DNA of 40,859 bases from a virus: positions 1 through 40,859 of IMG/VR virus record IMGVR_UViG_3300046673_000248. The stretch is one strand, 5' to 3'. The notes beneath the pieces were generated by a model, which saw nothing but the letters and a program-made list of their open reading frames with translations, was not told the origin of the DNA and made no database searches. Of this stretch, positions 19,174 to 40,831 are shown piece by piece. The translations under genes and the position numbers were made by a program. The stretch's first letter is position 1; each line of letters opens with the position of its first letter.

Positions 19174-20499
19174 TTACACCGCGCCGCCGGTAGCGTTGCC
19201 GGCCACGGTCAATTCAGGCTGCTCTTGGGCAACCTGCGCAAGCGCTTCGCCGAAGGTGATGTTCTTTTCCTTCTGGCGTGCGCGAGCCGCGTCGGTCAGT
19301 GGATCGCCAGTGGAAGCCTTGGTTCTGCCGGGCGCGGCGCCTTCCACCAGGCGGCCGCCGGACACAATCTTCGGCAGACCTTCCAGGAAAAGCACCAGCG
19401 TCTCCAGCGGAGTGACGGTCTTCTTGGCGTCGCCTTCGCCGAACTCGACGGTTGCGGTGGACTTGGCCAGCTCGTCAAAGACTGGGCCGAGACCCATCTT
19501 CTCGAAAGCCGGAATCCACTTGCCGGCCGTCTTGAGCCGGGCAATCGCCGCCTGGGCGCGCTGCTTGATCTCGCCGCCGGCGATCGCCGTTTCGCGCTCG
19601 GCGAACTTGGTGGCCTGCGTGGCGAGCTGGGTCTCCAGCGTGGTCACCTTGGCCACGAGAGGCGCGGCGGCCGCGGTGGCAGCCTCGGTAGCGATGCGCT
19701 GCGCATCGGCCTCGCTGAAAGTTTTGGGTTGCGCGGAGCCGCTGAAAAGTTCCGCGAAAAAGGCTTGGATTTCCTGCTTGATGGTTTTGTCTGCCACTTG
19801 TTCATCCTCCCCGAAGTCCACCTCGATGAACTTCGATCCGTGATCGTTGAATGCGAGGTCTGTGAGACCTTTGACTTCGGGCGGCTGCGCGCCTAGATAT
19901 GCCACATGGCGCAGTCCCGTGATATTGCCGTCAGCGTCGCAATAAAACGCCGCCGAACGCTTTTTGAAGCGCCCCGCCTTGCGCGCCTCGTCAAACTTGG
20001 GATCCACCTGCTTTTCGCGGGCCAGCAGCTTGTCGCCGTCCACAGCCAGCGCCTCGATCCAGCCGTAGGCGGGCTTGTCATCCGCCGGATGGCCGATGGT
20101 GGCCGGCGCTTCGTGGTAGGTGGGGTCATAATTGCGTACCACGCGGTCCAGGTCAGAGCGCGTAATCAAGCCTTTGTTCGCGCCGCGATAGTCACCGGCT
20201 CGGAAGATTTCAATCCAACCGCGCGGCGATTCGCCATGTTCCTGAGTGCGCGCATACTTAGCTTCAAAATCTGCGGTGTCGATTCCGGCCTTCTTGGCCT
20301 TGGCTGCGATCTTGCGGGCGACGGCGGCTTTCTCAGAGTCCGGCACATTCTTTTCATGGCCAAACATCTTCACGGCGGAGTCAATATGATCCGCGTCGAT
20401 GGGCAGATGCCATGTGGAAATATCCTGTGCATCGCCCACATAAGCGAATTGATCCGCTTCCAGAGGTTTGCCGTCCACTATCTTGGTCAACGAAGCCAT
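19174..20499 (-). CDS. Prohead protease-scaffold protein (Mu I-like)
   Basis: 441 residues. The N-terminus (FAYVGDAQDISTWHLPIDA) and the following helical stretch are seen in phage prohead proteases. The next region (PRGWIEIFRAGDYRG, ATIGHPADDKPAYGWIEAL, FKKRSAAFYCDADGNITGL) matches the Mu I / phage I-like protease family. The C-terminal half (about 240-440) is a long, Ala/Glu/Lys-rich coiled coil like a scaffold, as in Mu, where scaffold Z is made from the 3' part of I. An internal scaffold start is possible but was not identified. Final residues are Gln/Glu-rich. Confidence 0.82.
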   Translation of the reverse strand: MASLTKIVDGKPLEADQFAYVGDAQDISTWHLPIDADHIDSAVKMFGHEKNVPDSEKAAVARKIAAKAKKAGIDTADFEAKYARTQEHGESPRGWIEIFRAGDYRGANKGLITRSDLDRVVRNYDPTYHEAPATIGHPADDKPAYGWIEALAVDGDKLLAREKQVDPKFDEARKAGRFKKRSAAFYCDADGNITGLRHVAYLGAQPPEVKGLTDLAFNDHGSKFIEVDFGEDEQVADKTIKQEIQAFFAELFSGSAQPKTFSEADAQRIATEAATAAAAPLVAKVTTLETQLATQATKFAERETAIAGGEIKQRAQAAIARLKTAGKWIPAFEKMGLGPVFDELAKSTATVEFGEGDAKKTVTPLETLVLFLEGLPKIVSGGRLVEGAAPGRTKASTGDPLTDAARARQKEKNITFGEALAQVAQEQPELTVAGNATGGAV

Positions 20500-20567
20500 G
20501 CAATCACCCTACCTCTCTGAAAAGACTCTCCGTGCCGTACCTGAAGCACTTGCAGAAGCTGGGAAAG

Positions 20568-21371
20568 TTACACTCCCGCCAGGCCATGCCAGCCAGGCGG
20601 ACGCGCGAATTCAGCCAATATCGGAAGCCTTTCAATGCCGCCTTCATCACTTCCAGGCGGCGCATCTTCCGGCAGCACGGGAATCACCGAGCATCGGCAA
20701 TTAAATCCGTTGGGCGGATAGATGCGCAGCCACACCGGATCAATGGCGCGGGCGCAGAAACCATCCAGAGCGGCGTGTGCCGGCCTCACGCGCAGATCTC
20801 CGGCCGTCCAGTACTGCCAGTAAGGCAAGGCCTCCATCAGCGACGGCTCTTGCATCTGCTCCAGCCGGCCGGCGCTGTAGGCTTTGCCGCAGTTGGTTTG
20901 GAAGATCGTGTCCAGCTCGAAGGCGGCGAGATCCTCCACGCCGGCTTCCGTGGTCATTGCATTCACAGCCTTGCGGAAATCAGCCGGCGAGCCGCTTTTG
21001 GCCAGCGTGTCAGCCAAAGCGTCGCGGATCTTCGCTATCAGCTTTTGGTCACTGACGCCGGCTACAGTGAAAGCATCGTTGCGATATTGGCTGGTGAGAC
21101 CGTCGAAGAGATCGCGGGTCACCGGCGTCAGATCGCGCAGATAGTCAACCGCGCCGGTGGGCGGCAGATTGAAGCTGAAGCCGACATTGAAGGTGTCGCC
21201 CTGGGCGTCGGCCTCGCCGAAGTTGCGTAGTTGCGAGCTGGTGGCCAGACGAACCGGCCGCTTGGTTTTGACCAGGCCCACGCGGGCGACGTGCAGCCGC
21301 CCCAGCAGGTTCGTCGCCGCCAGGTGGCGCGCCAGCAGATCGCCGAGTTGTACCTGCGCGTGATCCATCAT
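20568..21371 (-). CDS. Phage head morphogenesis protein (Mu F / SPP1 gp7 family)
   Basis: 267 residues from ATG 21371. The ATGATG overlaps the portal stop codon, so translation is coupled; a longer frame reads into the portal gene and is rejected. The C-terminal block has HAALDGFCARAIDPVW, RIYPPNGFNCRCSV, the signature of the Mu F domain (PF04233: 'H..ldG......PPngw.CRC'). The central helical segment YSAGRLEQMQEP also fits. The product is a minor head protein taken into the procapsid near the portal. Confidence 0.85.
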   Translation of the reverse strand: MMDHAQVQLGDLLARHLAATNLLGRLHVARVGLVKTKRPVRLATSSQLRNFGEADAQGDTFNVGFSFNLPPTGAVDYLRDLTPVTRDLFDGLTSQYRNDAFTVAGVSDQKLIAKIRDALADTLAKSGSPADFRKAVNAMTTEAGVEDLAAFELDTIFQTNCGKAYSAGRLEQMQEPSLMEALPYWQYWTAGDLRVRPAHAALDGFCARAIDPVWLRIYPPNGFNCRCSVIPVLPEDAPPGSDEGGIERLPILAEFARPPGWHGLAGV

Positions 21372-22828
21372 TCCGTACCCTGATTCACAATCTCTTTCAC
21401 CCGCCGAGCAAAGATTCCCTTGGCTTCGCCCTGGAGCTGCGCGAAGAGCTTGTCGTACTGCTCCATCTCTTCGCGCATTTGAGCCTCGGCCTTGCGCTCG
21501 GCAAAGGTGGCCGTCGAGCGATCCGTGAGCGCCACCTGCGGCGCGTTGGTGTTTGGCACGAGGATCTGATCTGGAGTCGATCCCGGAGGCAGCGGCCGGT
21601 CGTAGCGATCCGAGGCGTAGCCAGCGGTGAAGCTGTAACCCATGCGTTGCAACGCGCTGTCCACCGTGATGCAGAGCGAGAGATCTTCCGCCTCTTCCAG
21701 ATCGAACTGCCAGACGGGCATCGGTGCCTTCGGCCCAAAGTTCCACAGCACCAGCGGCTTGATGAGCTGCAGATTGATGATGCTCTGGAGACTGCGGCAT
21801 AGCTCCACTGATCGCGAGTCGAGCGTGTCGGCATGAGTCTGGCCCTGGGCGCGGGAGCCGCCGCCGCCCTCGTTGCCGAAGCTGGTTAGCGTCTCACCCA
21901 GAATCACGCGCGCAATGTCATACTGCTTGGCTTTGCAAAAGTTCTCGTAAACCTCCGGATTCTGGCTGCGCGCGATCTTGAGCAGCTCCGGCTCAAACTC
22001 GAAGCCCTTCGGAACCGCGACGGCCACGCTGTCCGTGAGCGCCTGAGCGATATTCACCGCCTGCTTGCGCTCGGATTCATTGTCGGCATCGTTGTAATGC
22101 ACCACAGCCGTGCCAGGGCCTTTTTCGGCATACTGCATCCAGAGCCGTTCCATATTCCGCTTGAACCAGCTTGGCCAGAAAACTTCTTTGAGCAGTGGAC
22201 GCCCCATGCGGTTGCGGCTGCGGCCACGATAGCTGAAGATCAGAAACTTCTGCTCAGGCATCGGCCTGCCTTCGCTAGCCCAGGGATTATCCAGAAGTTG
22301 AAGCTGCCCCACCTGCGGATAAAAGCGGTTGCCGAAAAGGAAAAGCTCTTGCGGGCAATCGCTGATACTCACCAGCTCCGCCTGGCCCTCCGAAGTGTCA
22401 AAGATCATCTCCTGTACGCTGAAGCCGTAACCCGGCGCATCCAGGATGCAATCGAGCACGGCGTGAAAGTCAATCTTGCCGAGCTGCTCTTCGATGAATT
22501 CCTTGACTTCCTGCGCCTGCGCCGATTCATCGCGCGGCGCGGGCAGCACGCTGCGGTCACGCTCCAGCACGGTGAGTTTGAGGGTATGCAGGCAGTTGCT
22601 GACATCGGGGTCTTTGTCTTCCAGCTCGCGAAAGTAGGCCATGGTTTGCGGCAGATTGTAAGCCATGCTGCTGTAGATGTCCGAGGGATTGCGCGTGCCT
22701 CCAAAGGCCAGCGTGTTCCGGTAAAGCGAGAGCTGCTGCATGTAGAGGCTGCTGCTAGAGAGCAGCTCACCCCTGGGCGGCATCGGCGGAACGGCGGAGA
22801 GCTTTTCATCAGAACTGGTTTGGGGCAT
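21368..22828 (-). CDS. Portal protein (Mu gp29, DUF935 family)
   Basis: 486 residues. Motifs typical of the DUF935 portal group include DPDVSNCLHTLKLTVLERD, AVLDCILDAPGYGFSVQEM, FLIFSYRGRSRNRMGRPLLK and VFWPSWFKRNMERLWMQYAE. Then GVGCALN-free C-terminal helices follow with LSLCITVDSALQRMGYSFT. It starts at ATG 22828 overlapping the terminase stop, and ends in overlap with the Mu F-like gene. The product forms the dodecameric ring at the packaging vertex. Confidence 0.9.
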   Translation of the reverse strand: MPQTSSDEKLSAVPPMPPRGELLSSSSLYMQQLSLYRNTLAFGGTRNPSDIYSSMAYNLPQTMAYFRELEDKDPDVSNCLHTLKLTVLERDRSVLPAPRDESAQAQEVKEFIEEQLGKIDFHAVLDCILDAPGYGFSVQEMIFDTSEGQAELVSISDCPQELFLFGNRFYPQVGQLQLLDNPWASEGRPMPEQKFLIFSYRGRSRNRMGRPLLKEVFWPSWFKRNMERLWMQYAEKGPGTAVVHYNDADNESERKQAVNIAQALTDSVAVAVPKGFEFEPELLKIARSQNPEVYENFCKAKQYDIARVILGETLTSFGNEGGGGSRAQGQTHADTLDSRSVELCRSLQSIINLQLIKPLVLWNFGPKAPMPVWQFDLEEAEDLSLCITVDSALQRMGYSFTAGYASDRYDRPLPPGSTPDQILVPNTNAPQVALTDRSTATFAERKAEAQMREEMEQYDKLFAQLQGEAKGIFARRVKEIVNQGTE

Positions 22829-24189
22829 CAGAGGTAACCTTTCAACTGCGAAAAAGAGGTTGGCTTTTCGGAGGCTTGCACGCCTTTGAGGGTACAGACG
22901 CCGCCATTATCGCCCGCGAGAAGCGCCAGAGCTTGCGCCCAAAATTCATCCGCGTGGCCGGCCTCAGTGCGATCAGCATCAAAGCGGAAGTTATTCGCCG
23001 CGGTTGGAATGCGGCGCACGGCATGAACGGCGCCGCGCAGATCCCGGTCATCAGGGTTGCGAATTGTGCCCTCTTCGTAAGCGCGGCGCGTCCGGACCGC
23101 CAGATCTTCTTTGACCGCCAGGGTGAAGGTGACCGGCTCCACGCGCCAGGTTCCCCACTTGGTTTGAGTCTCTTCGGCAAGTTGCATACCGATGCCGGTT
23201 GCATCGATGCAAGCGCGGCGAATGGGCAGATGCTCGAAAAACCAGTCGATGCGTTTGCGCTGAAGTGCAAAGGGCGTGGCGCGAAGCCGGATGATCGCGC
23301 GCGTCCAATTAACTCCGAGGACTTTTTCGAGCAGGTAGATCACCGTCAAATCCTTGATGCGGCCAATATCCACACCCAGGCTCAGCTCTCCGATAGCCTT
23401 GAAAGTGTCCGGCAGCTCAGCTGTAGCGAAGATTGACTCAGCCGCCTGGATCTGCGCCCAGGTAATCCAACTTGAAGCGTCGGAGATGAACTTGCAGCAG
23501 TACTCCTGCTCCCAAATATCCTCATCCGGACAGCCTTCGCGCAATTTCTTCACATCGGCGTTGAGACCTTGGGCCACGGCGTCATAGATCGTGGTGCAGT
23601 GTTTGCTGAAGCCATTTTCTTTTTCGCTCAGCTCGTAAAACATTCCTGACTCGCCAAAGCAGGTTGAGCCGATCTCGATTGAATAACCGCGCGTCACCGA
23701 CGGGTAAATCGCCGCGTAGATTCGCTTGGCATCTTTGTGAAAGGCAAATTCATCCGCCAGGACGTTGCCAGTATAGCCGCGAGCCGTGTCGGGGTTAGCT
23801 GGCAGAAAGATCATGCGCGACTTATTAGACGGGAAGTGAATCACCGACTGGGTCAGTTCGACGCCTACCACAATCCCATCCGGGCGCATATGTTCTTCAA
23901 ATATCCCGGTCATTTCCTCATCATGGAATTCGAAGCCCCGCGCGGCCTGCTCAATTTGCGCAATCGCCTCGACGTGCTCCCGCGCCTTGTGGGCCAGTTC
24001 GTTCGATTGGCGCTGCCCGGCGCTGAGCGCGATCCATAGCGTCTTGTGACGCACCATATCGGTAATCGAGCGAAAGGTTGCACAAAAGCTGAAACCGATC
24101 TGCCGGGCCTTTTTCCAGATTTTGAGCGGGGATTTATCGTTGATCCAGTCTTGCTGGTATTTGAGGAAAACCTGGCTAGACGGCTCCAT
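22828..24189 (-). CDS. terL: Terminase large subunit (Mu gp28-like)
   Basis: 453 residues. The ATPase domain has a Walker A-like KKARQIGFS at 26-34 (the atypical R-Q-x-G-x-S form of large terminases) and Walker B VLADE at 143-147. The nuclease domain shows LSLGVDIGRIKDLTVIYL with D274, and ACIDATGIG with D329; a third acidic cluster near 415-431 (FDADRTEAGHADE) completes an RNase H-type site. It overlaps the small subunit gene by 14 bases. GGGAG before ATG 24189 supports the start. In Mu-type phages this enzyme packages by headful and includes flanking host DNA. Confidence 0.9.
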   Translation of the reverse strand: MEPSSQVFLKYQQDWINDKSPLKIWKKARQIGFSFCATFRSITDMVRHKTLWIALSAGQRQSNELAHKAREHVEAIAQIEQAARGFEFHDEEMTGIFEEHMRPDGIVVGVELTQSVIHFPSNKSRMIFLPANPDTARGYTGNVLADEFAFHKDAKRIYAAIYPSVTRGYSIEIGSTCFGESGMFYELSEKENGFSKHCTTIYDAVAQGLNADVKKLREGCPDEDIWEQEYCCKFISDASSWITWAQIQAAESIFATAELPDTFKAIGELSLGVDIGRIKDLTVIYLLEKVLGVNWTRAIIRLRATPFALQRKRIDWFFEHLPIRRACIDATGIGMQLAEETQTKWGTWRVEPVTFTLAVKEDLAVRTRRAYEEGTIRNPDDRDLRGAVHAVRRIPTAANNFRFDADRTEAGHADEFWAQALALLAGDNGGVCTLKGVQASEKPTSFSQLKGYL

Positions 24190-24856
24190 AAATCTCCCTC
24201 ACTTTTTCCAGCAGGTCTTCGCGGGTGAGAGTCACGGCGGGCTTGCCGTCGCCGCCGTCAATTTCCTCCAGGAGCTTGCGCGCCTTAACCTCGCGGTCCT
24301 CAAGCATCTTCAACCGGCGAGAATCAATGTCCACACGCTTGGCTTGTAGATCCACGCGCTGGAGGCGGGAAAGGCCCAGGGTGAGCTGGGTCAGCCGCTC
24401 AAGAAACTTTTCCTGGTCTCCCGGAGCCACGGTGTGCAGCAAGCTGAAGGCTTGATCCCGCATGGCGTTCATCACCGCCGCGTTCGTCCCCGCCACATCC
24501 TTGCCGGCGAGAGCTTCGATCCACACGCGCGTCTTGGCGCTCTCTGCCATCACCTGGCTGCGCACCTGGCTCACCCGCAGATCAAACCAGCGCTGGAGGG
24601 TTGATTTGGGCAGCTTCAGCCCCGGAAAGAGATCGAGCGCCTCCGGATCGACATTTGGCCAGTCGATGAAGCCGCCGCCGTCTTTCTCCCACTCCGCGCT
24701 GTACGGCCGCGCCGATTGCTCCTCGATCTCCACCCAGGTCCGGCCCCGGCCATAGAGCGTTTGAATCGCCTCCTGCGCGGCCTGCGGCAGGCGGTCGATC
24801 TTGAGCGGTTGCTTCGTTCGCCGCTGCTCTCCGGTTTTTGGCCTGGGCTTGGTCAT
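24176..24856 (-). CDS. terS: Terminase small subunit (Mu gp27, DUF3486 family)
   Basis: 226 residues. KIDRLPQAAQEAIQTLYGRG and WVEIEEQSARPY, then LPKSTLQRWFDLRV, give the family pattern 'kid.LP......l...g.t..eI......kS.L.R'. The C-terminal half is a long helical region (LTLGLSRLQRVDLQAKRVD). It lies directly before the large subunit, as gp27 does. DNA recognition at the left phage end would be its job. A Lys/Arg-rich N-terminal tail precedes the domain. Confidence 0.88.
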   Translation of the reverse strand: MTKPRPKTGEQRRTKQPLKIDRLPQAAQEAIQTLYGRGRTWVEIEEQSARPYSAEWEKDGGGFIDWPNVDPEALDLFPGLKLPKSTLQRWFDLRVSQVRSQVMAESAKTRVWIEALAGKDVAGTNAAVMNAMRDQAFSLLHTVAPGDQEKFLERLTQLTLGLSRLQRVDLQAKRVDIDSRRLKMLEDREVKARKLLEEIDGGDGKPAVTLTREDLLEKVREIYGAV

Positions 24857-24980
24857 TGGTTAGCTCTCAGCTTTCAGCTATCAGCTTTCAGCAAACGCGC
24901 TTGGGCACTTTCGGCGCTTTGCTTCTAGTTTCAGAATGCCGCGGGGTGCCACTCCGCATCATTTTTGAACATGCCCAAGG
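24857..24980. repeat. Gap with period-7 repeat
   Basis: Bases 24862-24894 hold about five units of the CAGCTTT/CAGCTAT type. The remainder shows no gene with good support. A 24-codon minus-strand frame exists but lacks a ribosome site. Confidence 0.6.
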
Positions 24981-25307
24981 TCAATCGAACAGCACATCCT
25001 CATTGCTTTTGTGGCGGGTCCAGAAGCGCAGACCCTCAGCGGTCAGCACGATCTCTGTGATCAGCAGCGTGCCGGTATCCTCGTCGTGCTGTGATCTGAA
25101 ATCGATGTAGCCGAGCGCTTGGAGATCCTGCAACATCGTGTTGACTTGGAACTTGCCCACGGTCTGGCGGATCTTCAGCATCATCCCCCAGATCTCGCTG
25201 CCCGTATATCTGGAGTTTTGAGACTCATGGTTCTCACGAATCAGCGTGAGAATGATGCGGCGCTGCCTGCGGATCAATTGCTCACTGCGCTCAGATTGAA
25301 GACTCAT
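24981..25307 (-). CDS. Winged-helix-like protein (Mu gp26 position)
   Basis: 108 residues from ATG 25307, which overlaps the upstream stop (TGATGA). The sequence has RQRRIILTLIRENHESQ, then TVGKFQVNTMLQDLQALGYI and TEIVLTAEGLRFW. That is the pattern of a small winged helix (helices, LxxLxxxGYI, then a beta hairpin ending LT..G). Mu gp26 and relatives are HTH proteins encoded at this point, before gp27 and gp28. Role inferred: accessory to packaging or regulation. Confidence 0.6.
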   Translation of the reverse strand: MSLQSERSEQLIRRQRRIILTLIRENHESQNSRYTGSEIWGMMLKIRQTVGKFQVNTMLQDLQALGYIDFRSQHDEDTGTLLITEIVLTAEGLRFWTRHKSNEDVLFD

Positions 25308-25867
25308 CAAACCGTACCCCCTATCTCTTTTTCCTTGGCGTCCAAAGCGGCTTTTTCCTTACTCAACATTGAATGCACGCCCTTCATGCTGTGCATGATT
25401 TCCGACAACACCTCATCCTGCCGATCGAGCCGATCTGTAATCTCCTGGCCCTGCTGAGCGGCGAACATCGCCAATCGTTGCGTCTCCCGATTTGTCTCGC
25501 CGCTGACCTCAGCCATGCGATTCATTGCCGCCGCCGTCTGAGCGGAGGCCTCCACGGCTCCCCGTATGCTTGCGGCCAGCTCGCCAAAACTCTCGCGGGT
25601 AGCCTGTATCTGGCTCTCAGTGATGCGCCCGTAGACATAAATGCCCACCAGCGCAACCAGGAAGGCTGGACCCCAAACCTGCAAAAGCTGAAAACTCTTA
25701 TCCGGCTGGTTACGGAAGACTTCATAGGCACCCGCCGCCAATGCCATCCCGCCCGCTCCATAGATGGCCACTTCCAACTTTTTTAGCCATCCGCTCCGGA
25801 AGCCGAGCGAAAACTCCGCCCGCCGCCCCGCCCCGCCACCCAAGTTGAGAGTCTCCATGGTCGTCAT
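25307..25867 (-). CDS. Membrane coiled-coil protein (Mu gp25 / DUF2730 position)
   Basis: 186 residues. Two hydrophobic stretches (VAIYGAGGMALAAGAYEVF, about 33-51, and WGPAFLVALVGIYVYG, about 65-80) are followed by a long amphipathic helix (about 83-180) rich in Gln, Glu and Ala. The order membrane segment then coiled coil, next to the gp26- and gp27-like genes, matches the place of Mu gp25 (DUF2730). Some phages use such proteins in lysis. Function is not established by sequence. Confidence 0.55.
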   Translation of the reverse strand: MTTMETLNLGGGAGRRAEFSLGFRSGWLKKLEVAIYGAGGMALAAGAYEVFRNQPDKSFQLLQVWGPAFLVALVGIYVYGRITESQIQATRESFGELAASIRGAVEASAQTAAAMNRMAEVSGETNRETQRLAMFAAQQGQEITDRLDRQDEVLSEIMHSMKGVHSMLSKEKAALDAKEKEIGGTV

Positions 25868-26092
25868 TTTCCCTTCCCAAGCCTAAAAGTCGCTCTTGAG
25901 GTCAGACCAAGCCAAAATTTGCCCCAGCGCTGCCCCAAAATCGGCGCGTCGGGCCGTTCATCTCAAAACCGCGTCCGGTAACACCCCGGATTCGCCAAAA
26001 CCTAAATCTGTGCCTTCCAGCCCGGTTTCGCCTTTTCTGCGCTTTCCGGGTTTTTACTGATGGCTGAAAGCTGAGAGCTGAAAGCTGAAAGC
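25868..26092. other. 225-bp gap, no gene seen
   Basis: No supported reading frame. Bases 26058-26092 form a period-7 repeat (GCTGAAA, GCTGAGA units). Several CCGGGTT/AACCCGG-like short matches occur but no clear terminator. Confidence 0.5.
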
Positions 26093-26752
26093 TCAAGATC
26101 CCCCAACCGCCCCCGCCACCGTCAAATTGTCCGGCCGGCCCCACATCGCCTGAAACTTGGTCTCGAAGACGGTGTCTTCATGCGTTCCCAGGGTGAAGAC
26201 GGCGGAGTTATCCTGCCTCATCTCGCCCTGCTCACTGAAATTCGCCGATCCGTCTCGCACCAGGTAGCGATGAAAGCCTTTGGCATCGCTGGTATCCACC
26301 GCATAACTCTTCAGATGCATCAGCACTTTTGAGTTTTTGACTTTGATTTGTACTCCCGGCAGCCCGATCAGGCTATGCAGCGGAGACCGCGCGCACAGCG
26401 CGTCGCCCCGGCACTGCGCCTGCAGCTCGCCTCGGTCCAGATAAATGCGCACCTGCACGCCATGCGCGGCCCTGTCGGCCAGCGCGGCGATGATCGCCTT
26501 GTCACTCAAACAGAATGCCGCCAGATCGATGCCGGCTCCCGCTGAGCCGAGCGCGCCCACGTCCAGCTTTTCCAGATTCGTCTCCGGCGAATAAAAGGTT
26601 CCATACGGCAACGCCGCCGGCGCGCCCTGCGCAAAGGCGTACTGACCGCCCCCGCCGCCTCCGCAGCTCGCCATAAAGCCGCTCAAAGCCAGCGCCGCCA
26701 GCCACAGCAGCCTGATCCCTGACCAACGTACTCCGATCCCCACTTTTTTCAC
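26093..26752 (-). CDS. Phospholipase D-like lipoprotein
   Basis: 219 residues when started at GTG 26752; a longer frame runs through the octamer repeat and is rejected. The N-terminus is a lipoprotein signal: charged start, hydrophobic core LLWLAALALSGF and lipobox MASC with C30, followed by six glycines. The catalytic domain has one HxKxxxxD motif (H146, K148, D153) and GSANFS at 168-173, as in single-motif PLD-family enzymes that work as dimers. It would be exported and anchored to a membrane. It is a likely moron gene: no morphogenetic role is expected. Possible roles are phospholipid or nucleic acid cleavage at the envelope, or superinfection exclusion. Confidence 0.72.
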   Translation of the reverse strand: MKKVGIGVRWSGIRLLWLAALALSGFMASCGGGGGGQYAFAQGAPAALPYGTFYSPETNLEKLDVGALGSAGAGIDLAAFCLSDKAIIAALADRAAHGVQVRIYLDRGELQAQCRGDALCARSPLHSLIGLPGVQIKVKNSKVLMHLKSYAVDTSDAKGFHRYLVRDGSANFSEQGEMRQDNSAVFTLGTHEDTVFETKFQAMWGRPDNLTVAGAVGGS

Positions 26753-26758
26753 ATCCCC

Positions 26759-26812
26759 AAAGGTGCCAAACCTGGTCCCTTGGTCCCTTAGTCCCTTGGT
26801 CCCTCTCATTAC
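26759..26812. repeat. Period-8 GTCCC repeat
   Basis: Units of the form TGGTCCCT / TAGTCCCT repeat about five times between the lipoprotein and the 84-residue gene. Same family as 27747-27796, 28290-28405 and 29160-29195 (reverse orientation). Confidence 0.8.
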
Positions 26813-27063
26813 AACGCCTCCATCAATCCGCGTATCCGGCTTCCTACCACCAGCTCCGTCACCCACCAGGGCCGCTTGAAACAAATAAAAACCAATCGCC
26901 GATCTTCTTCCTGATAGGTCCACTGAATCGTGACGCCGTGGTCTGTCGCCTCGCCCCAGTCGTTTTCACAAGCAAACCCAGCCGCCTGCGCCCGAATCCG
27001 CGCCCGTACCGCAAGGTACCGGAGCCGGTCGATTCCGTCGAACTGGATGCGCAAAGAAGCCAT
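26809..27063 (-). CDS. Hypothetical protein with WW-type C-terminal motif
   Basis: 84 residues: MASLRIQFDGIDRLRYLAVR, a helix with ARIRAQAAGF, then a beta region WGEATDHGVTIQWTYQEEDR ending in ICFKRPWWVTELVVGSRI. It looks like a compact alpha/beta fold. It stands between the cold-shock gene and the lipoprotein. A strong hairpin lies upstream. Family not recognised. Confidence 0.55.
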   Translation of the reverse strand: MASLRIQFDGIDRLRYLAVRARIRAQAAGFACENDWGEATDHGVTIQWTYQEEDRRLVFICFKRPWWVTELVVGSRIRGLMEAL

Positions 27064-27088
27064 CGACTTTTAGCTCTCAGCTTTTAGC

Positions 27089-27125
27089 TTCCGCCGCCTG
27101 CCCAGGTTCGATCCAGGCGGCGGAA
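27089..27125 (-). promoter_or_regulatory. Perfect 12-bp hairpin after the cold-shock gene
   Basis: TTCCGCCGCCTG (27089-27100) pairs with CAGGCGGCGGAA (27114-27125), loop 13 bases. No T run follows leftward. It lies between the cold-shock gene and the 84-residue gene and resembles the capsid-region hairpins in size. The rest of the 27064-27280 gap holds only period-7 repeats (27066-27088 and 27221-27282). Confidence 0.6.
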
Positions 27126-27280
27126 GGTTGGTTGGTTGAGTTCCCCAGGTAGAAGCCGGCATCAAACCTTTTGGCAATCTGGGGTCACTACGCTCTGCTA
27201 TGGGGTATTCCGTTAAGCCCCCAGCCCTCAGCCCTCTGCCCTCAGTTTTTAGCTGAAAGCTGATAGCTGAAAGCTGAAAG

Positions 27281-27499
27281 CTAGATCTTCACAACCTTAT
27301 CCGCCTGCGGCTTGTCCTTCTCGCCGATGACGATGCCGAACTCCACCTGCTCACCCTCGACCAGCTTCTTGTGACCCTTGGGCACAATCGCCGAATAATG
27401 CACAAAAATGTCCTGGCCGTGTTCCCGGCCGATAAAGCCGTAGCCCTTCGCGTCGTTGAACCACCTCACCGTGCCTTTGTACCGCGTCTCTTGTGCCAC
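27281..27499 (-). CDS. csp: Cold-shock domain protein
   Basis: 72 residues, GTG start at 27499 with AAAGGA upstream. It is one complete cold-shock domain: GTVRWFNDAKGYGFIGREHG holds RNP1 (KGYGFI), and DIFVHYSAI holds RNP2 (DIFVHY). It binds single-stranded nucleic acid, melting RNA structure. Bacterial hosts have several. A phage copy within the late block may help translation or antitermination of structured late mRNAs, which here carry many strong hairpins (inference). A period-7 repeat flanks each side. Confidence 0.93.
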   Translation of the reverse strand: MAQETRYKGTVRWFNDAKGYGFIGREHGQDIFVHYSAIVPKGHKKLVEGEQVEFGIVIGEKDKPQADKVVKI

Positions 27500-27552
27500 G
27501 TTCCTTGTCCTTTCGTTCTCAAAATCAGCTATCAGCTATCAGCTATCAGCCG

Positions 27553-27729
27553 TCAGCGCCTGGCCTGGACTTTGGCTTCAACTCTGGCTTCCAGGCGTTT
27601 CACGCGAGCCTCGAAGTCCGCTTCCAGCTTGGCCACCCGCGCCTTGATCTTCACTGCGAAAATCACACCCACGGCCAGCACAACAATCAAAGCCGCTACA
27701 AACCAGAAAAGATTCGTTAGAAAATGCAT
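27553..27729 (-). CDS. 58-residue membrane-anchored coiled-coil protein
   Basis: ATG 27729 is preceded by AAAGGGGAG. The product has an N-terminal membrane segment (FWFVAALIVVLAVGVIFAV, about 8-26) and a charged helix with regular heptads (ARVAKLEADFEARVKRLEA). It lies next to the holin gene. Its design, one membrane anchor plus periplasmic or cytoplasmic coiled coil, resembles inner-membrane spanins (Rz-like) or XhlA-type lysis accessory proteins. It was found by translating the gap and is below common length cut-offs. The lysis role is inferred from context. Confidence 0.65.
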   Translation of the reverse strand: MHFLTNLFWFVAALIVVLAVGVIFAVKIKARVAKLEADFEARVKRLEARVEAKVQARR

Positions 27730-27742
27730 TGCCGCTCCCCTT

Positions 27743-27800
27743 TCACTTGGTCCCCTGGTCCCTCGGTCCCCTGGTCCCTCAGTCCCTTAGTCCCTGTCGT
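27743..27800. repeat. Period-8 GTCCC repeat
   Basis: About six units of TGGTCCCC / CGGTCCCT / CAGTCCCT lie between the holin stop and the ribosome site of the 58-residue gene. Confidence 0.8.
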
Positions 27801-27808
27801 CGCCCGGC

Positions 27809-28285
27809 TTAAGACTTGTTTGAAATTTTCGTCAGCCCCAAGATGCTCACCTGGGAGTCTCCCGGCATCGCCGCGACCTTCTCGGCGGTGCGGTTGAAGA
27901 CGTATCCTGTGACACAAACTCCGAAGAGCGTCAATAGATCGGCGGGCAACACCATCGGCGCCAGCGCTTTGCCTGTGCAAGCCTGCACCAAAGGAATCAC
28001 GATGTAATTGAAAGCCAGGATCAGCTCAACCACGTACATGAAATTCGGGCGCGCGCGCTGGGTATATTTGTCCCCAGTTGCCGCATCCGAGCGGATGTTT
28101 TGCCCGGCGATGTCGTTCATCTTCACGTCGTAATCGACCGCGGATTGCTGTGCCTGGGCTTGAGCGGCCGCCAGGGCTTGCGCGGCCTGCTGCTTTTCCT
28201 CCGGCGATATGTGAAATTCGCCGATGATCTTCGTCAATCCGTCAAACGCCTGATTGATGATCGGTACAATAACTCCCGTTGCCAT
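27809..28285 (-). CDS. Holin (3TM holin family)
   Basis: 158 residues. An N-terminal helical part (ISPEEKQQAAQALAAAQAQA) precedes TQRARPNFMYVVELILAFNY. The ARP motif before the first strong membrane helix is typical of the 3TM holin family (PF11351). Membrane segments lie at about 84-103 and 112-132, with a weaker one near the N-terminus. The tail has GDSQVSILGL. AGGAGGAAAG before ATG 28285 is an excellent site. It would form the inner-membrane hole that releases the lysozyme encoded upstream. Confidence 0.8.
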   Translation of the reverse strand: MATGVIVPIINQAFDGLTKIIGEFHISPEEKQQAAQALAAAQAQAQQSAVDYDVKMNDIAGQNIRSDAATGDKYTQRARPNFMYVVELILAFNYIVIPLVQACTGKALAPMVLPADLLTLFGVCVTGYVFNRTAEKVAAMPGDSQVSILGLTKISNKS

Positions 28286-28289
28286 CTTT

Positions 28290-28405
28290 CCTCCTTGGTC
28301 CCCTTGGTCCCTCAGCCCCTCAGTCCCTCAGACACTCAATCCCCCGGACCCCAGGTCCCATGGTCCCTCGGTCCCCTGGTTCCCTGTTCCCTGTTCCCTG
28401 TTCCC
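28290..28405. repeat. Long period-8 GTCCC repeat
   Basis: About fourteen degenerate units (TGGTCCCC, CAGTCCCT, then TGTTCCCTGTTCCC) fill the gap between lysozyme and holin. It abuts directly on the 79-bp duplicated lysozyme segment. Confidence 0.8.
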
Positions 28406-28484
28406 TCGCGCCCAGGTTGAATGTGAAGTCCACCAGCGCGTCGAATTGGCCTTGGGTGAGCGCAACTTTCACCAGCCGAGCCAC
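28406..28484. repeat. 79-bp exact duplicate of an internal lysozyme segment
   Basis: Bases 28406-28484 are identical to 28627-28705, which lie inside the lysozyme gene. The duplicate forms the last codons and downstream region of the same gene (minus strand), so the last four residues (WLGW) and the stop come from the duplicate read in another frame. Confidence 0.9.
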
Positions 28485-28903
28485 AGCACGCCCTCCGCCA
28501 GCCGCCGCTTCTTGAGCGACTCCAGCTCCACCGCGCCGGCATGATCCCAGCGCACGAGCTGCTCGCACGCGCCGTCGTAATCGCCTTTGTTCAGCTTTTT
28601 CAGGAGTGTGGATCCGGAGAGCTTGATCGCGCCCAGGTTGAATGTGAAGTCCACCAGCGCGTCGAATTGGCCTTGGGTGAGCGCAACTTTCACCAGCCGA
28701 GCCACGGTTGCGCAGGCGTTATTCACATCGGAAACCAGAATGTCAGCCGCGCCAGCTTCATCAATCCCGTCCGGGAAGCTGGCCGGGTGCAAAAGCCTGT
28801 GTCCGTAGCCAATTGTCGGAAAGCCGCAGGCGTCCAGGTACACCTTCGCCCGGAAGCCCTCGGACCGCTTCAAAAGTTCCAATCCCGCCGCGCTGAATTT
28901 CAT
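28469..28903 (-). CDS. Endolysin, T4-type lysozyme (GH24)
   Basis: 144 residues. KRSEGFRAKVYLDACGFPTI then GYGH contains the catalytic set E15, D24 and T30, with the same spacing as E11-D20-T26 of T4 lysozyme. Further family motifs: QFDALVDFTFNLGAIKLSGS (about 80-99), TLLKKLNKGDY and WDHAG. The C-terminus is unusual: after RRLAEGVL the frame enters the 79-bp duplicated segment and ends WLGW-stop. There is no signal peptide, so release depends on the holin next door. It cleaves peptidoglycan glycan strands. Confidence 0.92.
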   Translation of the reverse strand: MKFSAAGLELLKRSEGFRAKVYLDACGFPTIGYGHRLLHPASFPDGIDEAGAADILVSDVNNACATVARLVKVALTQGQFDALVDFTFNLGAIKLSGSTLLKKLNKGDYDGACEQLVRWDHAGAVELESLKKRRLAEGVLWLGW

Positions 28904-29224
28904 TCTTGCTCCTTGCCGGTAAAGCTGTCAGCTATCAGCTATCAGCCCTCAGCCGCCAGTTTTTAGCTGAAAGCTGATAGCTGAAAGCTGAAGGCCGTCT
29001 TCCGCTCTGGCAACCCGCCGCTCTCCTTTGGGTGAGATTGGCGTTCAATGAAACGAGCATAAGGCAGCGTTTCGCCGCGCCGGGAAGCGGTTGAAGGGGT
29101 TGCGGAAGTTGGGGAAGTTTACGGCGCGGGAGGGCGCGGGGAGGCTGGAAAGGCAGGGAATAGGGACTAAGGGACTAAGGGACCAGAGGACTGAAAACTG
29201 AAAGCTGATAGCTGAAAGCTGCTT
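28904..29224. other. 320-bp gap with mixed repeats
   Basis: Period-7 repeats occupy 28927-28995 and 29190-29222 (AGCTGAA/AGCTGAT type), and GGGACTAA octamers lie at 29160-29195. The centre (29000-29155) is G-rich (GGCGCGGGAGGGCGCGGGGA) and has no reading frame with a ribosome site. No promoter recognised. Confidence 0.55.
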
Positions 29225-29476
29225 TTAGATCACCACTCGTAAAAGAGCATACACCACGCCGGCGGTCAGCGCGAAAGCCCATAGCGCGCCGAAGACCACC
29301 CAAAAGATCGAGAAGGCGGTCAGGGAGTGAGGGTGAATGTGAGTCTCTTGGGGCGCAGCTCCGCGCATCGCGCGGATCTCCGCAATCGATTTTCCGGCTT
29401 TTGAGGCTTCTACACACTCATCATGCCCGGCAGATGCAACCCCGGCCCATTCGCCGCAAATTGTACACATTGCCAT
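29225..29476 (-). CDS. Small zinc-site membrane protein
   Basis: 83 residues. The N-terminus has C4, C7, H18 and C21 (MCTICGEWAGVASAGHDEC), a likely zinc site. A His-containing linker (THIHPHS) and one long hydrophobic segment (AFSIFWVVFGALWAFALTAG, about 54-80) follow. It lies upstream of the lysozyme gene, so it may be a lysis regulator or second holin-like protein. Two in-frame ATGs (29476, 29470) are possible starts; a weak GAGAA precedes the first. Confidence 0.55.
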   Translation of the reverse strand: MAMCTICGEWAGVASAGHDECVEASKAGKSIAEIRAMRGAAPQETHIHPHSLTAFSIFWVVFGALWAFALTAGVVYALLRVVI

Positions 29477-29492
29477 AACGTTCTCACTTTGT

Positions 29493-29717
29493 TTAAGTTT
29501 TACCGGATGATTTGAGTTTTGCCAACCCCTCTACCATAGCGAAGGGAAAGCCTGGAAGATCGTCTTTAACTTCAAAAGCCTGACTCGTCGCTGTCAGATT
29601 TCCCTTACAAACAGCAAACCCATAATCGTATCGGGTGAACGAAACAATGTCACGATACTTGATTCTTAATGCCTTATGAGCGCCGCCGAAAAGAATTGCG
29701 CGATCAGTCAAAGCCAA
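29493..29717 (-). pseudogene. N-terminally truncated PH-like domain protein
   Basis: The frame is open from a TAA at about 29758-29756 and reads FVSIDTGILALTDRAILFGG, then LRIKYRDIVSFTRYDYGFAV and PGFPFAMVEGLAKLKSS. 'LTD.RAILFGG....RIKYRDIVSF' is the pattern of bacterial PH-like (YokE-type) domains, but the first strands are missing and no ATG is available. TTG 29717 is the only usual start (74 residues). It is the first gene of the leftward block, 16 bp before the next. It may be a remnant of a host-derived gene cut by insertion of the control region, or a minimal functional domain. Confidence 0.5.
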
Positions 29718-29780
29718 AATCCCGGTATCGATGGAGACAAAACTTTTGTTTTCTTAGTTTTAATAAGCGTCCATGGATCG

Positions 29781-29828
29781 AATCTGAGTCAATATGAAAA
29801 TTCTTCTTGACAATCTGAGTCATTTTGA
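29781..29828. promoter_or_regulatory. Two operator-like direct repeats
   Basis: AATCTGAGTCAATATGA (29781-29797) and AATCTGAGTCATTTTGA (29812-29828) match at 15 of 17 positions. They are 31 bp apart, about three helical turns, so a regulator could bind both on one face. Each holds the 7-bp palindrome TGAGTCA. The second lies within the -35/-10 spacer of the early promoter. They lie in the only divergent region of the genome, so binding could switch both blocks. Confidence 0.65.
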
Positions 29829-29842
29829 CTATTCTCCTCACC
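29807..29842 (+). promoter_or_regulatory. Rightward early promoter
   Basis: A perfect -35 TTGACA (29807-29812), 17-bp spacer and TATTCT (-10, 29830-29835) predict transcription from about 29842-29843. That is the A of the regulator ATG at 29843, so the mRNA would be leaderless; no Shine-Dalgarno is present. The second operator repeat fills the spacer. Confidence 0.6.
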
Positions 29843-30049
29843 ATGGTTATGAAAGACACCTTACCGCGCCAGTTTATCTCTTTACGGGCACAGACGCGCA
29901 AATATAACCGCAACCGGGGTTTGTACACCCGTGTGGCGCGTGAACTCGATCTCTCTCCCAGCCACGTCCGCCTCGTTGCTTTAGGGTTGCGCCGCAGTTC
30001 CAAAGTGGAAGCCGTCCTCCTCCGCGAACTCTCCGAGGAGGCCGCTTGA
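29843..30049 (+). CDS. Small HTH early regulator (Ner/repressor-like)
   Basis: 68 residues from ATG 29843 (a second ATG is at 29849). It has a basic N-terminus (FISLRAQTRKYNRNRGLY) and a helix-turn-helix TRVARELDLSPSHVRLVALG, then LRRSSKVEAVLLREL. It is the first gene after the operator-promoter region, the place of negative regulators such as Ner in Mu. It shares the pattern 'S..HV..Va.G.....kv...L..E' with the HTH part of the next gene. Probable ligand: the two 17-bp repeats just upstream. Confidence 0.65.
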   Translation: MVMKDTLPRQFISLRAQTRKYNRNRGLYTRVARELDLSPSHVRLVALGLRRSSKVEAVLLRELSEEAA

Positions 30050-30480
30050 GCCAACCCACACTCATAGAGTTGCAAGCAAACTTTGGACCGCCAGATTGCA
30101 TACTTTTGGACAATGGCCGCGACATGCAAAAGCTGGCCAAGGGAGCAACGCCTTTCTACCTGGTTGAGTCAGCTACCGCCGCGCCGGAGGGCTGGCGGCA
30201 TTCGGAGGTTGACTCGCTGGAGAATACAGGCTTCCTGGCGCGGGCCGACAAGCTGCCTGAACCAACTAAGAAAATAATCGGTAAGCCGTTTTCTCCGGAT
30301 GTTTATGCACAATTTCATCGCGGAGGACGTTATTTTGAACTTCGATCCAAGGTGGCTAAACAGCCCGGTATATCTCAAACGCATGTCTCAAACGTTGCAT
30401 CAGGCCGAGCAAGGGGCAATCATGTTTTGACTTTTCTCATTTCAGAGATGAAACTAATAGACGCTGAGGTGAGTAAATGA
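30046..30480 (+). CDS. Chimeric regulator: transposase core fragment fused to HTH domain
   Basis: 144 residues, TTG start overlapping the previous stop (TTGA). Residues 13-67 are identical to residues 282-336 of the transposase encoded downstream (including the second catalytic Asp in LLDNGRD), because 167 bp of DNA are duplicated exactly and in frame. Residues 68-144 form a HTH protein (YFELRSKVAKQPGISQTHVS, NVASGRARGNHVL) related to the preceding regulator. The fragment lacks D220 and E354, so it cannot be a transposase. It could interfere with transposase or be a neutral insertion in a regulator. An assembly artefact must also be excluded. Confidence 0.6.
   Translation: MSQPTLIELQANFGPPDCILLDNGRDMQKLAKGATPFYLVESATAAPEGWRHSEVDSLENTGFLARADKLPEPTKKIIGKPFSPDVYAQFHRGGRYFELRSKVAKQPGISQTHVSNVASGRARGNHVLTFLISEMKLIDAEVSK
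30081..30247. repeat. 167-bp exact repeat, copy 1
   Basis: Identical base for base to 31319-31485, offset 1238 bp. Identity stops sharply at both ends (A versus C before, A versus G after). Copy 2 lies in the conserved core of the transposase gene and is taken as the source. Confidence 0.92.
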
Positions 30481-32375
30481 GTACCCAAATGGCCTTGCAA
30501 CTGGCCATCCCAATACCTTTAACCGCCCCGCAACGCGTCCTGCTCACTTCGCCGGAAGATGAGGCCACCGCAGAATTCCGCTCCTCTTTTGTGCGCATGA
30601 TTATTGAATCCCAGCGAGACCCTCAACGGTTTGGCCGTCTGGTGCTTCGTAACGGGGATCGCGTTACGAGCCTGAGCCGCATGGTGGTCTACGCCGCCGA
30701 GCTGGCCCAGGTCACCGAGGCCACGATGTGGCGCTGGCTGGCGGTCTATAAGAAGCACGGCCGCGCCGCCCTGCCCAACTCGCAGCGCAAAGACAAAGGC
30801 CAATCGCGCTGGTTCGAGGCTTATCCCCAGGCCAAGCACTTTGCCGCTTACCTCAGCCTGGGCGAAGCCGGCCTGGGCGGCCTCGATCCCAGCCTGAACT
30901 TCGTGGGCCAGAGCATCAGCTACGTTCACAGCGAGCTGATCCGCCAGGCCAAGGCGCTGGGCATTCCGCAAGATGATCTGCCCAGCTACGCCACGGTTCG
31001 CCGCTGGCTGGAGATGATTCCCTCCTCCATGAAGATTTACGCGGAGAAAGGCAAGCGCGCCTACCGCGATCTGGTCAGCCCGCATCTCACCCGCGCCATT
31101 ACGGATGTCTACAGCAATCAAATCCTCGTAGGCGATCACGCCTACCACGACGTGATGCTTAGAAATGACTGCTTCAGCAATGTCGAGTGGGGAACCAAGA
31201 TTCGCATCCGCATCACCGGCTTCGATGATTATCGCAGCCGGAAGTTTGTGGGCCTGAGCTGGTGTTGGGAAGGTTCCAACCGTAGCCTATGCGCCGCCTT
31301 GATTCTTCCGCTAAGCACCTTTGGACCGCCAGATTGCATACTTTTGGACAATGGCCGCGACATGCAAAAGCTGGCCAAGGGAGCAACGCCTTTCTACCTG
31401 GTTGAGTCAGCTACCGCCGCGCCGGAGGGCTGGCGGCATTCGGAGGTTGACTCGCTGGAGAATACAGGCTTCCTGGCGCGGGCCGGAATCGCTGTTCAGT
31501 TCTGCCAGCCTTATCACGGGCAAGCAAAAAATGTAGAGAGAGGTTGGGGCACAATTCATCAGAAATGGGATAAGCTCTGGCCGACGTACACATCGGGGAG
31601 TCCCTTCACGCGGCCGGTGATGACTGAAGAGGCCATGGAGCGCCACGACAAGCTGGCGAAGCGCGGCCGCGCCGATGAATCGGAGCTGCCAACCACCAGC
31701 GCCTTCATTCAAGCTACCCGCGCCTGGATCGAGGAGTTCAATGACACCGGCCACACCGGCCGCGGCATGGAAGGCGCTTCGCCGAATGAAGTTTTCAAGG
31801 CGTGCTTCAACCCCAAGCAAAAGCCGCCCATCGACGCCGCCACACTGACTCTGCTGATGGCCGACCGCTTCACGCGCAAGGTCCGCAAATGCGTGGTGCA
31901 TCACGAGAAAAAGCGCTTTGAGCCGGTGGATCGCCTGGGCTGGGAGATCCTGCACGACTTTGAAGGTTCGGAGATCATGCTGGCCTACGAACCCGGCGCG
32001 CCTGATGTGGCCAACGCGCTCACCCTCGACGGCAACTTCCTCTGCGCGCTGCGCACTGAGGAGCTGGCCCGCTACGCGCCCGCCGATCCGCACACCAAGG
32101 AACTGATCTCGCAATCGATGGCCACGCGCCGCCACCTGGAAAAGCGTACCCGCGAAGGCATCCGCAACATATCCATTGTCGCCCGTTCGAAAGGCGCGCT
32201 CAGCCCGCTGGAATCGATTGCCACCCGCCTCCAGCAACCGGCAAATACTGGCCTGGCGGACCTCATCACCCAGCGCAAACCTCAACCCCTGCCCGAATCT
32301 GATCGCGCGCTTGACCGTCCCTCCACTCCGGCTCAGGCAGCGCGCATCGCACTCGCAAGTCTCAGAAAGGCGTAA
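30477..32375 (+). CDS. A: DDE transposase (MuA-like, phage A protein)
   Basis: 632 residues; ATG overlaps the previous stop. The N-terminal part has HTH DNA-binding regions (SRMVVYAAELAQVTEATMWR near 67-86, and YATVRRWLEMIP). The integrase-like core has D220 (ILVGDHAYHDV), D291 (CILLDNGRDM) and E354 (GQAKNVERGWGTIH), the DDE triad with GQAKxVER as in MuA/IS481-type enzymes. A beta-barrel follows at about 467-526 (VHHEKKRFEPVDRLGWEI..GSEIMLAYEPG), then a basic, Pro-rich tail for the ATPase contact. It binds the terminal sites at 28-90 and 40699-40825, cuts after CA and joins strands. This is both integration and replication of the phage. Confidence 0.95.
   Translation: MSTQMALQLAIPIPLTAPQRVLLTSPEDEATAEFRSSFVRMIIESQRDPQRFGRLVLRNGDRVTSLSRMVVYAAELAQVTEATMWRWLAVYKKHGRAALPNSQRKDKGQSRWFEAYPQAKHFAAYLSLGEAGLGGLDPSLNFVGQSISYVHSELIRQAKALGIPQDDLPSYATVRRWLEMIPSSMKIYAEKGKRAYRDLVSPHLTRAITDVYSNQILVGDHAYHDVMLRNDCFSNVEWGTKIRIRITGFDDYRSRKFVGLSWCWEGSNRSLCAALILPLSTFGPPDCILLDNGRDMQKLAKGATPFYLVESATAAPEGWRHSEVDSLENTGFLARAGIAVQFCQPYHGQAKNVERGWGTIHQKWDKLWPTYTSGSPFTRPVMTEEAMERHDKLAKRGRADESELPTTSAFIQATRAWIEEFNDTGHTGRGMEGASPNEVFKACFNPKQKPPIDAATLTLLMADRFTRKVRKCVVHHEKKRFEPVDRLGWEILHDFEGSEIMLAYEPGAPDVANALTLDGNFLCALRTEELARYAPADPHTKELISQSMATRRHLEKRTREGIRNISIVARSKGALSPLESIATRLQQPANTGLADLITQRKPQPLPESDRALDRPSTPAQAARIALASLRKA
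31319..31485. repeat. 167-bp exact repeat, copy 2 (within transposase core)
   Basis: Same sequence as 30081-30247. It codes for residues 282-336 around the second catalytic Asp. The reading frame is the same in both copies. Confidence 0.92.
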
Positions 32376-32377
32376 GT

Positions 32378-33343
32378 ATGAACGACAGCACACAATCCGC
32401 CAGAGCACAGAAACTCGCCTCCAACTTCATGGTTCGCACCGGGATGTCGCCCGTGGATTTCGCGCGAAGAATTGGCTATAACTTCAATACACTTCAGCAA
32501 TTTCTTAACGGGCATTATTCCGCCATCACCAACAGCTCGCGGATCTCCGGCGCGATTCTCAACTTCATTGAAAACGCGCCGCTGGACCTGGAAGACGCCT
32601 TCAACAAAAACATCTACGAGACCGGCGCGGTCAAGGTTATGCGCGGCGTCTTCGCGCAGCTCCTGACAGCCTCGCAGATTTTTATGGTGTACGCGCATCC
32701 CGGCAGCGGCAAAACAGATGTGGCCCGTTACCTGATTGCTCTGCACAACGCGCAGCGCGCTCCGGAAGCCGGCGCGTACATCTTCCGCGTTTATTGCCGC
32801 AAGAAGATTAGCCCGCGCGACCTGCTCAAGCGCATCTGCACCAAGTGTGGCACGCCGGCCGATACAGCCATCGACCGCGCCATTCACAACATCTGCTGGG
32901 ACTTCAAAGGCAAGCGCGTCGTTCTCTACTTCGATGAGGCGCAAAATCTGAGCATCGATTGCCTGGACACCGTCCGCGAACTCTTTGACGAGGAGCCTCA
33001 CTTCTCGTTGATCTTTTCCGGCGCGGAGGATCTGGATCAAAATTTCAGCAAGTTTACCGGCAACCTGGAGCGCTGGGAGCGGCGCATCACCGATCGCGTG
33101 ACGCTTCCCCCGGTAACCACCGAGGAAGCCACCGGCATTCTCCGCAGCGAATTGCCGGAATTCACCCTCGACCAGGCCTTCATCAAGCAGCAGCTTGAGC
33201 TGGCCACCATCAGCGTGCGCGTGGACAAGAAAACGCAGCGCTACATCTCTATCGGCCGTCTTATGGCTACGATCAGCGAGATCCGCAAAAGCATGGCTCC
33301 TCTTGAGGCCGCGGACTCGCGGGAAGTTGAGAAAGTCGCATGA
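32378..33343 (+). CDS. B: AAA+ ATPase target-capture protein (MuB-like)
   Basis: 321 residues. The N-terminal HTH (MSPVDFARRIGYNFNTLQQF, about 23-42) is like that of MuB. The ATPase core has Walker A HPGSGKT (107-113) and Walker B VVLYFDEAQ (181-189), followed by a sensor-type LIFSGAEDLD and a RRITDRVTLPP segment. The C-terminal lid is helical. MuB binds target DNA non-specifically, activates transposase and gives target immunity near phage ends. It follows the transposase gene by two bases, and the next gene overlaps it by ATGA. Confidence 0.93.
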   Translation: MNDSTQSARAQKLASNFMVRTGMSPVDFARRIGYNFNTLQQFLNGHYSAITNSSRISGAILNFIENAPLDLEDAFNKNIYETGAVKVMRGVFAQLLTASQIFMVYAHPGSGKTDVARYLIALHNAQRAPEAGAYIFRVYCRKKISPRDLLKRICTKCGTPADTAIDRAIHNICWDFKGKRVVLYFDEAQNLSIDCLDTVRELFDEEPHFSLIFSGAEDLDQNFSKFTGNLERWERRITDRVTLPPVTTEEATGILRSELPEFTLDQAFIKQQLELATISVRVDKKTQRYISIGRLMATISEIRKSMAPLEAADSREVEKVA

Positions 33344-33858
33344 CAATCACTCAAGCAACACGCCTGATGGGCGACGCCTGCGCCGTTGTGGCTGGCGATC
33401 TCCCCGCCGGCGCATCGGCGCCGCGCTCGCTGGAGCATCTGATTGACGAAGTGCTCGAAGACACATTCATGCCCTTCCGCGTGCAAATGAAGGTGCAGGA
33501 CCGCGTGATCCGCTACAAGCGCGGCTACTTTTCGCCGGTGGATGCGCGCGGCTGGCTTCAGATGGGAAAGTACAACGGCTCCGAGGTTTTTATCGCCTAC
33601 GATCCGCGCGACCTCGGCAGCATTCTTGCGCTGGATGCCCAGGGCAATTACCTCGCGTGGCTGGTCTATCATCCATGGCCGCGCTCGGCCCAGAGCTGGC
33701 TCACGCGCCTCCGCGTGTACCTGGATAACTGGCAGCCTACCCAGCGCATGACTAACATCTGCGATTTTTGGATGAAGATTTTTCTCTCCGGCGTGGTCTG
33801 CTACTTCGCCATCGAAATCCTCTGGCCGTTCTTCCGCTATGTGACGGGAGGCCGCTGA
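33340..33858 (+). CDS. Membrane-anchored protein with MuA-type beta-barrel
   Basis: 172 residues. Residues 57-108 (VIRYKRGYFSPVDARGW, then YNGSEVFIAYDPRDLG and LDAQGNYLAWL) align clearly with the transposase beta-barrel at 467-526, which has GSEIMLAYEPG and LDGNFLCAL at matching places. The N-terminal 50 residues are helical. The C-terminus has a membrane segment (FWMKIFLSGVVCYFAIEI, about 143-160) and a short basic end. No catalytic residues are present. It is coupled by ATGA overlap to the MuB-like gene and so is made with the transposition machinery. Inferred: a membrane tether or modulator of transposase. Confidence 0.75.
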   Translation: MTITQATRLMGDACAVVAGDLPAGASAPRSLEHLIDEVLEDTFMPFRVQMKVQDRVIRYKRGYFSPVDARGWLQMGKYNGSEVFIAYDPRDLGSILALDAQGNYLAWLVYHPWPRSAQSWLTRLRVYLDNWQPTQRMTNICDFWMKIFLSGVVCYFAIEILWPFFRYVTGGR

Positions 33859-40698: not shown

Positions 40699-40831
40699 CA
40701 CTCTCATTTAATTTGAAAAATCGTTTCTCGCCGTTGCGCTGTGGAAATCCGCCTTTCACCCGCGCCATTCCCACATATTCCCACCATCCCCCACTCCTTC
40801 CCCCCACTCTCATATAATTTGAAAACTCACA
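40699..40831 (-). repeat. Right phage end with two transposase-binding-type sites
   Basis: R2 at 40699-40720 (CACTCTCA, three bases, then AATTTGAAAAA) and R1 at 40805-40825 (CACTCTCA, three bases, AATTTGAAAA) are inverted copies of the left-end sites. R1 is followed by CTCACA, so the element ends with CA at 40831. The distance from R1 to the end matches that from L1 to position 22. The 28 bases beyond are taken as host flank. Confidence 0.85.

Follow-up and report, generated by a model that had tools for sequence, protein, structure and literature searches.

The early region of a Mu-like phage

The window (the whole 40,859-nucleotide stretch of DNA that was analysed) is an IMG/VR virus record. 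By its gene content it is a Mu-like phage, with A and B transposition genes and Mu-type head genes (Portal_Mu, 3.9e-72; Phage_Mu_F, 8.3e-18). Its early genes lie in the order Ner-like HTH gene, chimeric ORF, A, B and a 172-aa gene, termed here the post-B gene (Table 1). As in the early region of Mu (c, ner, A, B), a small HTH gene, the transposase A and the AAA ATPase B are encoded on one strand, with a Mu-type portal and F protein elsewhere; in contrast to Mu, an additional ORF separates the Ner-like gene from A in the window, and part of A has been copied into it. A c repressor of the Mu type was not recognised in the window. Among aligned homologues of A, the rve domain was matched in 7 of 8 sequences and Mu-transpos_C in 5 of 8 (E ≤ 0.01).

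The motif TCAAATTNNNTGA[GT]AG (TTTTCAAATTNNNTGAGAGTG-like) was found at positions 31, 54 and 89 and at 40716 and 40822, and nowhere else in the window. These are putative transposase end sites and, since they lie solely at the window ends, the genome would be near complete. A 35-bp perfect tandem duplication (107-176) is located near the left end. Short units of the AGCTATC/AGCTGAA and GGTCCCT types form interspersed arrays in several places between the late genes (24862-29226), and units of the AGCT type occur in the related record L003 too.

Table 1. Features of the early region, the post-B gene and the lysozyme locus, in window coordinates.
Feature	Position	Strand	Remarks
Ner-position HTH gene, 68 aa	29843..30049	+	59% identical to the same-place gene in L008/L017; divergent HTH family
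Chimeric pre-A ORF, 144 aa, TTG start	30046..30480	+	Overlaps both neighbours
Native leader LSQPTLIELQAN	30046..30080	+	Like the start of the L003 same-slot gene (QRPTISELREN)
Exact 167-bp copy of transposase segment (A residues 281-335)	30081..30247	+	First 112 bases also in IMGVR_UViG_3300046697_000185
Native C-terminal part, one HTH module	30248..30477	+	42-44% identical to module 2 of the L009 same-slot regulator; model pLDDT about 95
Mu-type transposase A, 632 aa	30477..32375	+	PHROG 310, E 2e-59; 74% identical to L003
Donor segment within A	31319..31485	+	Collinear homology through both edges in L003 and 6 other transposases
B-type AAA ATPase (DNA transposition protein)	32378..33343	+	PHROG 296, E 2e-28
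Post-B gene, 172 aa	33340..33858	+	N-terminus and C-terminal membrane anchor like relatives, diverged transposase barrel between
Mu-transpos_C barrel, diverged copy of A residues 452-525	33442..33663	+	36% identity, BLASTP 6e-11
79-bp copy, 3' end of lysozyme gene	28406..28484	-	Out of the donor's frame; also in the second contig
Phage lysozyme gene (endolysin)	28469..28903	-	PF00959, 2.8e-36
Donor of the 79-bp duplication, inside lysozyme	28627..28705	-	Single copy in L003

An exact copy of a transposase segment in the pre-A ORF

A repeat search of the window returned a 167-bp pair as its longest exact repeat: the two copies are identical at 167 of 167 bases, lie 1,238 bases apart in direct orientation and are read in the same frame, and chance was excluded as the source. 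Within the pre-A ORF, the copy encodes FGPPDCILLDNG...FLARA, i.e. FGPPDCILLDNGRDMQKLAKGATPFYLVESATAAPEGWRHSEVDSLENTGFLARA, the 55 residues of A listed in Table 1; of its remaining two frames, one is open and one contains stops. The piece includes D291 which, like D220 and E354, is invariant in 8 of 8 aligned transposases, and in this alignment the three residues fit a DDE triad. A first-pass annotation of this DNA had described identical 167-bp copies in one frame, encoding 55 transposase-core residues with the second catalytic Asp, and both statements were borne out.

Homology of A to its counterpart in L003 continues across both edges of the donor segment, as it does in the six other transposases, and A is therefore the donor, in line with the origin proposed earlier. 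The copy is unique among the relatives: when the 55 residues were searched against 13 related records, each gave one match, inside its own transposase in 12 cases; the L014 match, at a contig end, is the left portion of this same insert. No empty site (the same leader and HTH part without the piece) was found among the relatives, none of which combines this leader with this HTH part, as a direct run from the N-terminal 12 residues to DKLPEP would require. A search of IMG/VR with the HTH module found only L009, and a search with the exact 41-mer directly right of the copy gave no match. The transposase search of genome contigs gave no relative, named phages offered only distant transposases (the best spanning no more than 62% of A, with about 22-27% identity), and the A profile matched no PDB sequence. 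For the leader, the shuffle test against the L003 sequence gave 0.0016-0.0042 at the protein level and 0.074 at the DNA level, and this resemblance is suggestive only.

A second exact duplication nearby

The window holds another exact repeat, of 79 bp, about 1.4 kb upstream of the 167-bp copy. Because the 79-bp copy is out of its donor's frame, it points to an undirected duplication process. It starts at GTGGCTCGG, where L003 has GTGGCACGG; at the edge of the 167-bp copy the window has CTTTGG, and L003 has CTATGG at the matching place. Judged from this distant relative (74% identical in A), these edges suggest that both duplications were joined at short shared words.

Exact repeats of at least 60 bp are rare in about 300 kb of related contigs: a 70-bp repeat was found in an L003 gene and a 185-bp repeat in contig G005. 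The former is the exact core of an in-frame 41-residue duplication in that record's own post-B gene (L003:8033-8755). The latter (L044:17586-17770 and 18762-18946) is an element with inverted ends in two copies that are 98% identical, and was rejected as a parallel to the 167-bp copy on account of those ends. Insertion of an IS or MITE was likewise rejected as the source of the copy: no inverted pair of at least 20 nt was reported at the copy ends, and no adjacent target duplication was seen on reading the flanks.

Start/stop overlaps and variability of the pre-A slot

The TTG start of the chimeric ORF overlaps the preceding stop codon (TTGA) and its stop codon overlaps the start of A (ATGA), by 4 bp each. 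In seven relatives, the end of the pre-A ORF lies between a 4-base overlap and a 9-base gap from the start of A (-4 to +9; the pre-A ORF of L004 was picked mechanically, without interpretation). A frame break in the chimeric ORF would be expected to disturb A through these overlaps, and the events left by selection on A expression would be in-frame ones. The in-frame join would be better explained in this way than by an interference function.

The contents of the slot vary. It encodes one HTH module in L010 and L012, and tandem copies of the module in L011 (two) and in L009 and L013 (three) (L009:3305-4144, L011:3515-4150, L013:3324-4094, L010:3635-3895), a protein without HTH modules in L008, L015 and L016, and in L003 a helical protein with a leader like that of the window; L004-L006 were left uninterpreted in this survey. 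The modules of L009, L011, L013 and L010 had only scattered weak Pfam and PHROG matches, and the whole L009 and L013 proteins had no PHROG. The C-terminal part of the window ORF carries the module of this pre-A-slot HTH family (GGRYxGxYxRVAxxLGxS...). It had been annotated as related to the upstream Ner-like neighbour: this stands at the family level (27% identity in the multiple alignment), but a direct BLASTP comparison gave no match.

An older transposase-derived segment downstream of B

In an all-against-all comparison of 50 ORFs, the only convincing paralogous matches were the two transposase-derived pieces, i.e. the 167-bp copy and a segment of the post-B gene; one weaker match joined two other ORFs (E 0.008). 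The post-B segment matches Pfam PF09299 with 27.5 bits (cut-off 21.7). The membrane anchor of the same gene has counterparts in L003, L004 and L008, within their own post-B genes, and no Mu-transpos_C barrel was detectable in the post-B genes of L003, L004, L008, L009, L011 and L015. No homologue of the window's post-B gene was found in IMG/VR or in named phages. The barrel is an old transposase-derived graft, for which the phage's own A is a candidate origin. It shows that in this lineage parts of a transposase can survive until they have diverged, and this makes pure neutrality of the 167-bp copy less certain.

Predicted structure of the chimeric protein

In the AlphaFold model of the chimera, the pLDDT was about 95 in the HTH part and about 42-74 in blocks of the insert, mostly 50-60. 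The model of A was poor in the core (mean pLDDT 56), so the order of secondary structure alone was used: a strand (287-291) with D291, a loop, a strand (339-343) and a helix with E354. According to this order, the copied piece of 55 residues comprises a single RNase H-core strand and the loop that follows it. It is not a domain, and it is without the other core strands and the third acidic residue. No known interaction domain was matched in the piece, and Foldseek with the chimera returned weak HTH matches only (E 0.65 or worse). By these models, the piece is predicted to lack the fold or interaction domain by which a dominant-negative fragment would be recognised.

Alternative explanations

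An assembly or library artefact would mean that no single molecule holds the right junction, or even the copy as a whole, or that diverged copies were collapsed. The source is a virus contig of IMG/VR, two exact repeats lie within 3 kb, and the divergence is zero over 167 bases, near short-read length, so that the exactness could partly reflect collapse by the assembler. A second contig, IMGVR_UViG_3300046697_000185 (9,979 bp; it includes L014 and L018), is 100% identical to window positions 20214-30192 over its whole length. It holds the left junction and stops 112 bases into the repeat, 55 bases short of the right edge, as contigs do at unresolved repeats; the right junction (30247/30248) is present in the window assembly only. 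The left junction is thereby supported, from a sample that is possibly not independent of that of the window, and the same caution goes with the 79-bp repeat, both copies of which are complete in each contig. The ORF is open across both junctions and its HTH part ends in the coding overlap with A. Moreover, an assembler can make neither edge without shared words, which requires a repeat of some kind unless the reads were chimeric. The first-pass annotation had offered a very recent event or an assembly error: the event does look recent, with an intact fusion ORF, and the second contig weakens the idea of an error on the left side. An artefact is rated as unlikely, and the event is probably real.

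The chimera had also been proposed to be a dominant interfering partner of the transposase at operator DNA, i.e. the piece would enable the HTH regulator to bind the transposase, or to poison it, as a self-limiting brake on transposition. The ORF is open and in frame and is coupled to A as well as to the Ner-like gene, and the post-B gene has retained another transposase part. Inhibitors that are truncated transposases, such as the Tn5 inhibitor protein, likewise contain part of a transposase encoded next door, but these keep folded dimerisation parts, whereas the 55 residues of the window piece come from midway through the RNase H core. The region shared by the Mu repressor and MuA is DNA-binding, and so differs from the part copied here. 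The Mu precedent is otherwise similar in that a regulator, the Mu repressor, has sequence in common with the transposase (PMC3820752). That sharing is old homology, as opposed to the exact and recent copy of a catalytic-core part in the window. Since the models show no folding unit, the proposed interference is not supported; there is no divergence to reveal selection, and the fusion is absent from all relatives. A functional fusion is on balance improbable. Still further down the scale, the 167-bp direct repeats might act as a recombination switch, permitting loss of the intervening 1,238 bp. As both copies have one orientation and share a reading frame, the predicted deletion product is an open frame, with the leader joined to A residues 281-632. 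Such a deletion would remove the HTH part and the DNA-binding half of A irreversibly, and no such variant was found; we consider a switch very improbable.

Origin and meaning of the chimeric gene

The favoured explanation, which we hold to be probable, is that template switching or illegitimate recombination recently made a short-patch duplication in the slot that separates the Ner-like gene from A. While DNA was being replicated or repaired, 167 bases of A would have been copied into the gene in that slot, beside native sequence that was probably similar to the start of the donor beforehand. Given the overlaps with the preceding stop and the start of A, the events that kept the frame would be those that survived. 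The product would probably be the HTH regulator of the slot with an unstructured 55-residue insert, for which no function is necessary. The copy is thus most likely a recent copying accident, possibly neutral, that was tolerated because the reading frame survived.

The duplications made by illegitimate recombination or template switching in phage mosaicism are similar: they are short and exact, with probable microhomology at one edge and no terminal repeats found, at a gene edge. Unlike in these usual cases, the donor here is a segment of a transposase catalytic core, and its copy forms an internal insert that keeps the frame; the mechanism would be ordinary and the donor is striking. A literature search found no matching precedent.

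A bolder extension of this duplication scenario, with a low probability, is that the transposase gene of this lineage repeatedly passes coding segments to the two genes on either side of A-B, that some of these grafts are kept and become accessory proteins (the membrane-anchored post-B barrel), and that the pre-A copy is a graft caught at birth. Recurrent donation is a more interesting hypothesis than interference, and a role of the chimera in the regulation of transposition is unproven. The locus would offer a snapshot of a chimeric gene just after its birth, with donor and copy identical, side by side and near an apparently older transposase graft. It raises the questions of how frequently phages assemble new early proteins out of parts of their own transposase and how far the overlap of start and stop codons filters the insertions that survive.
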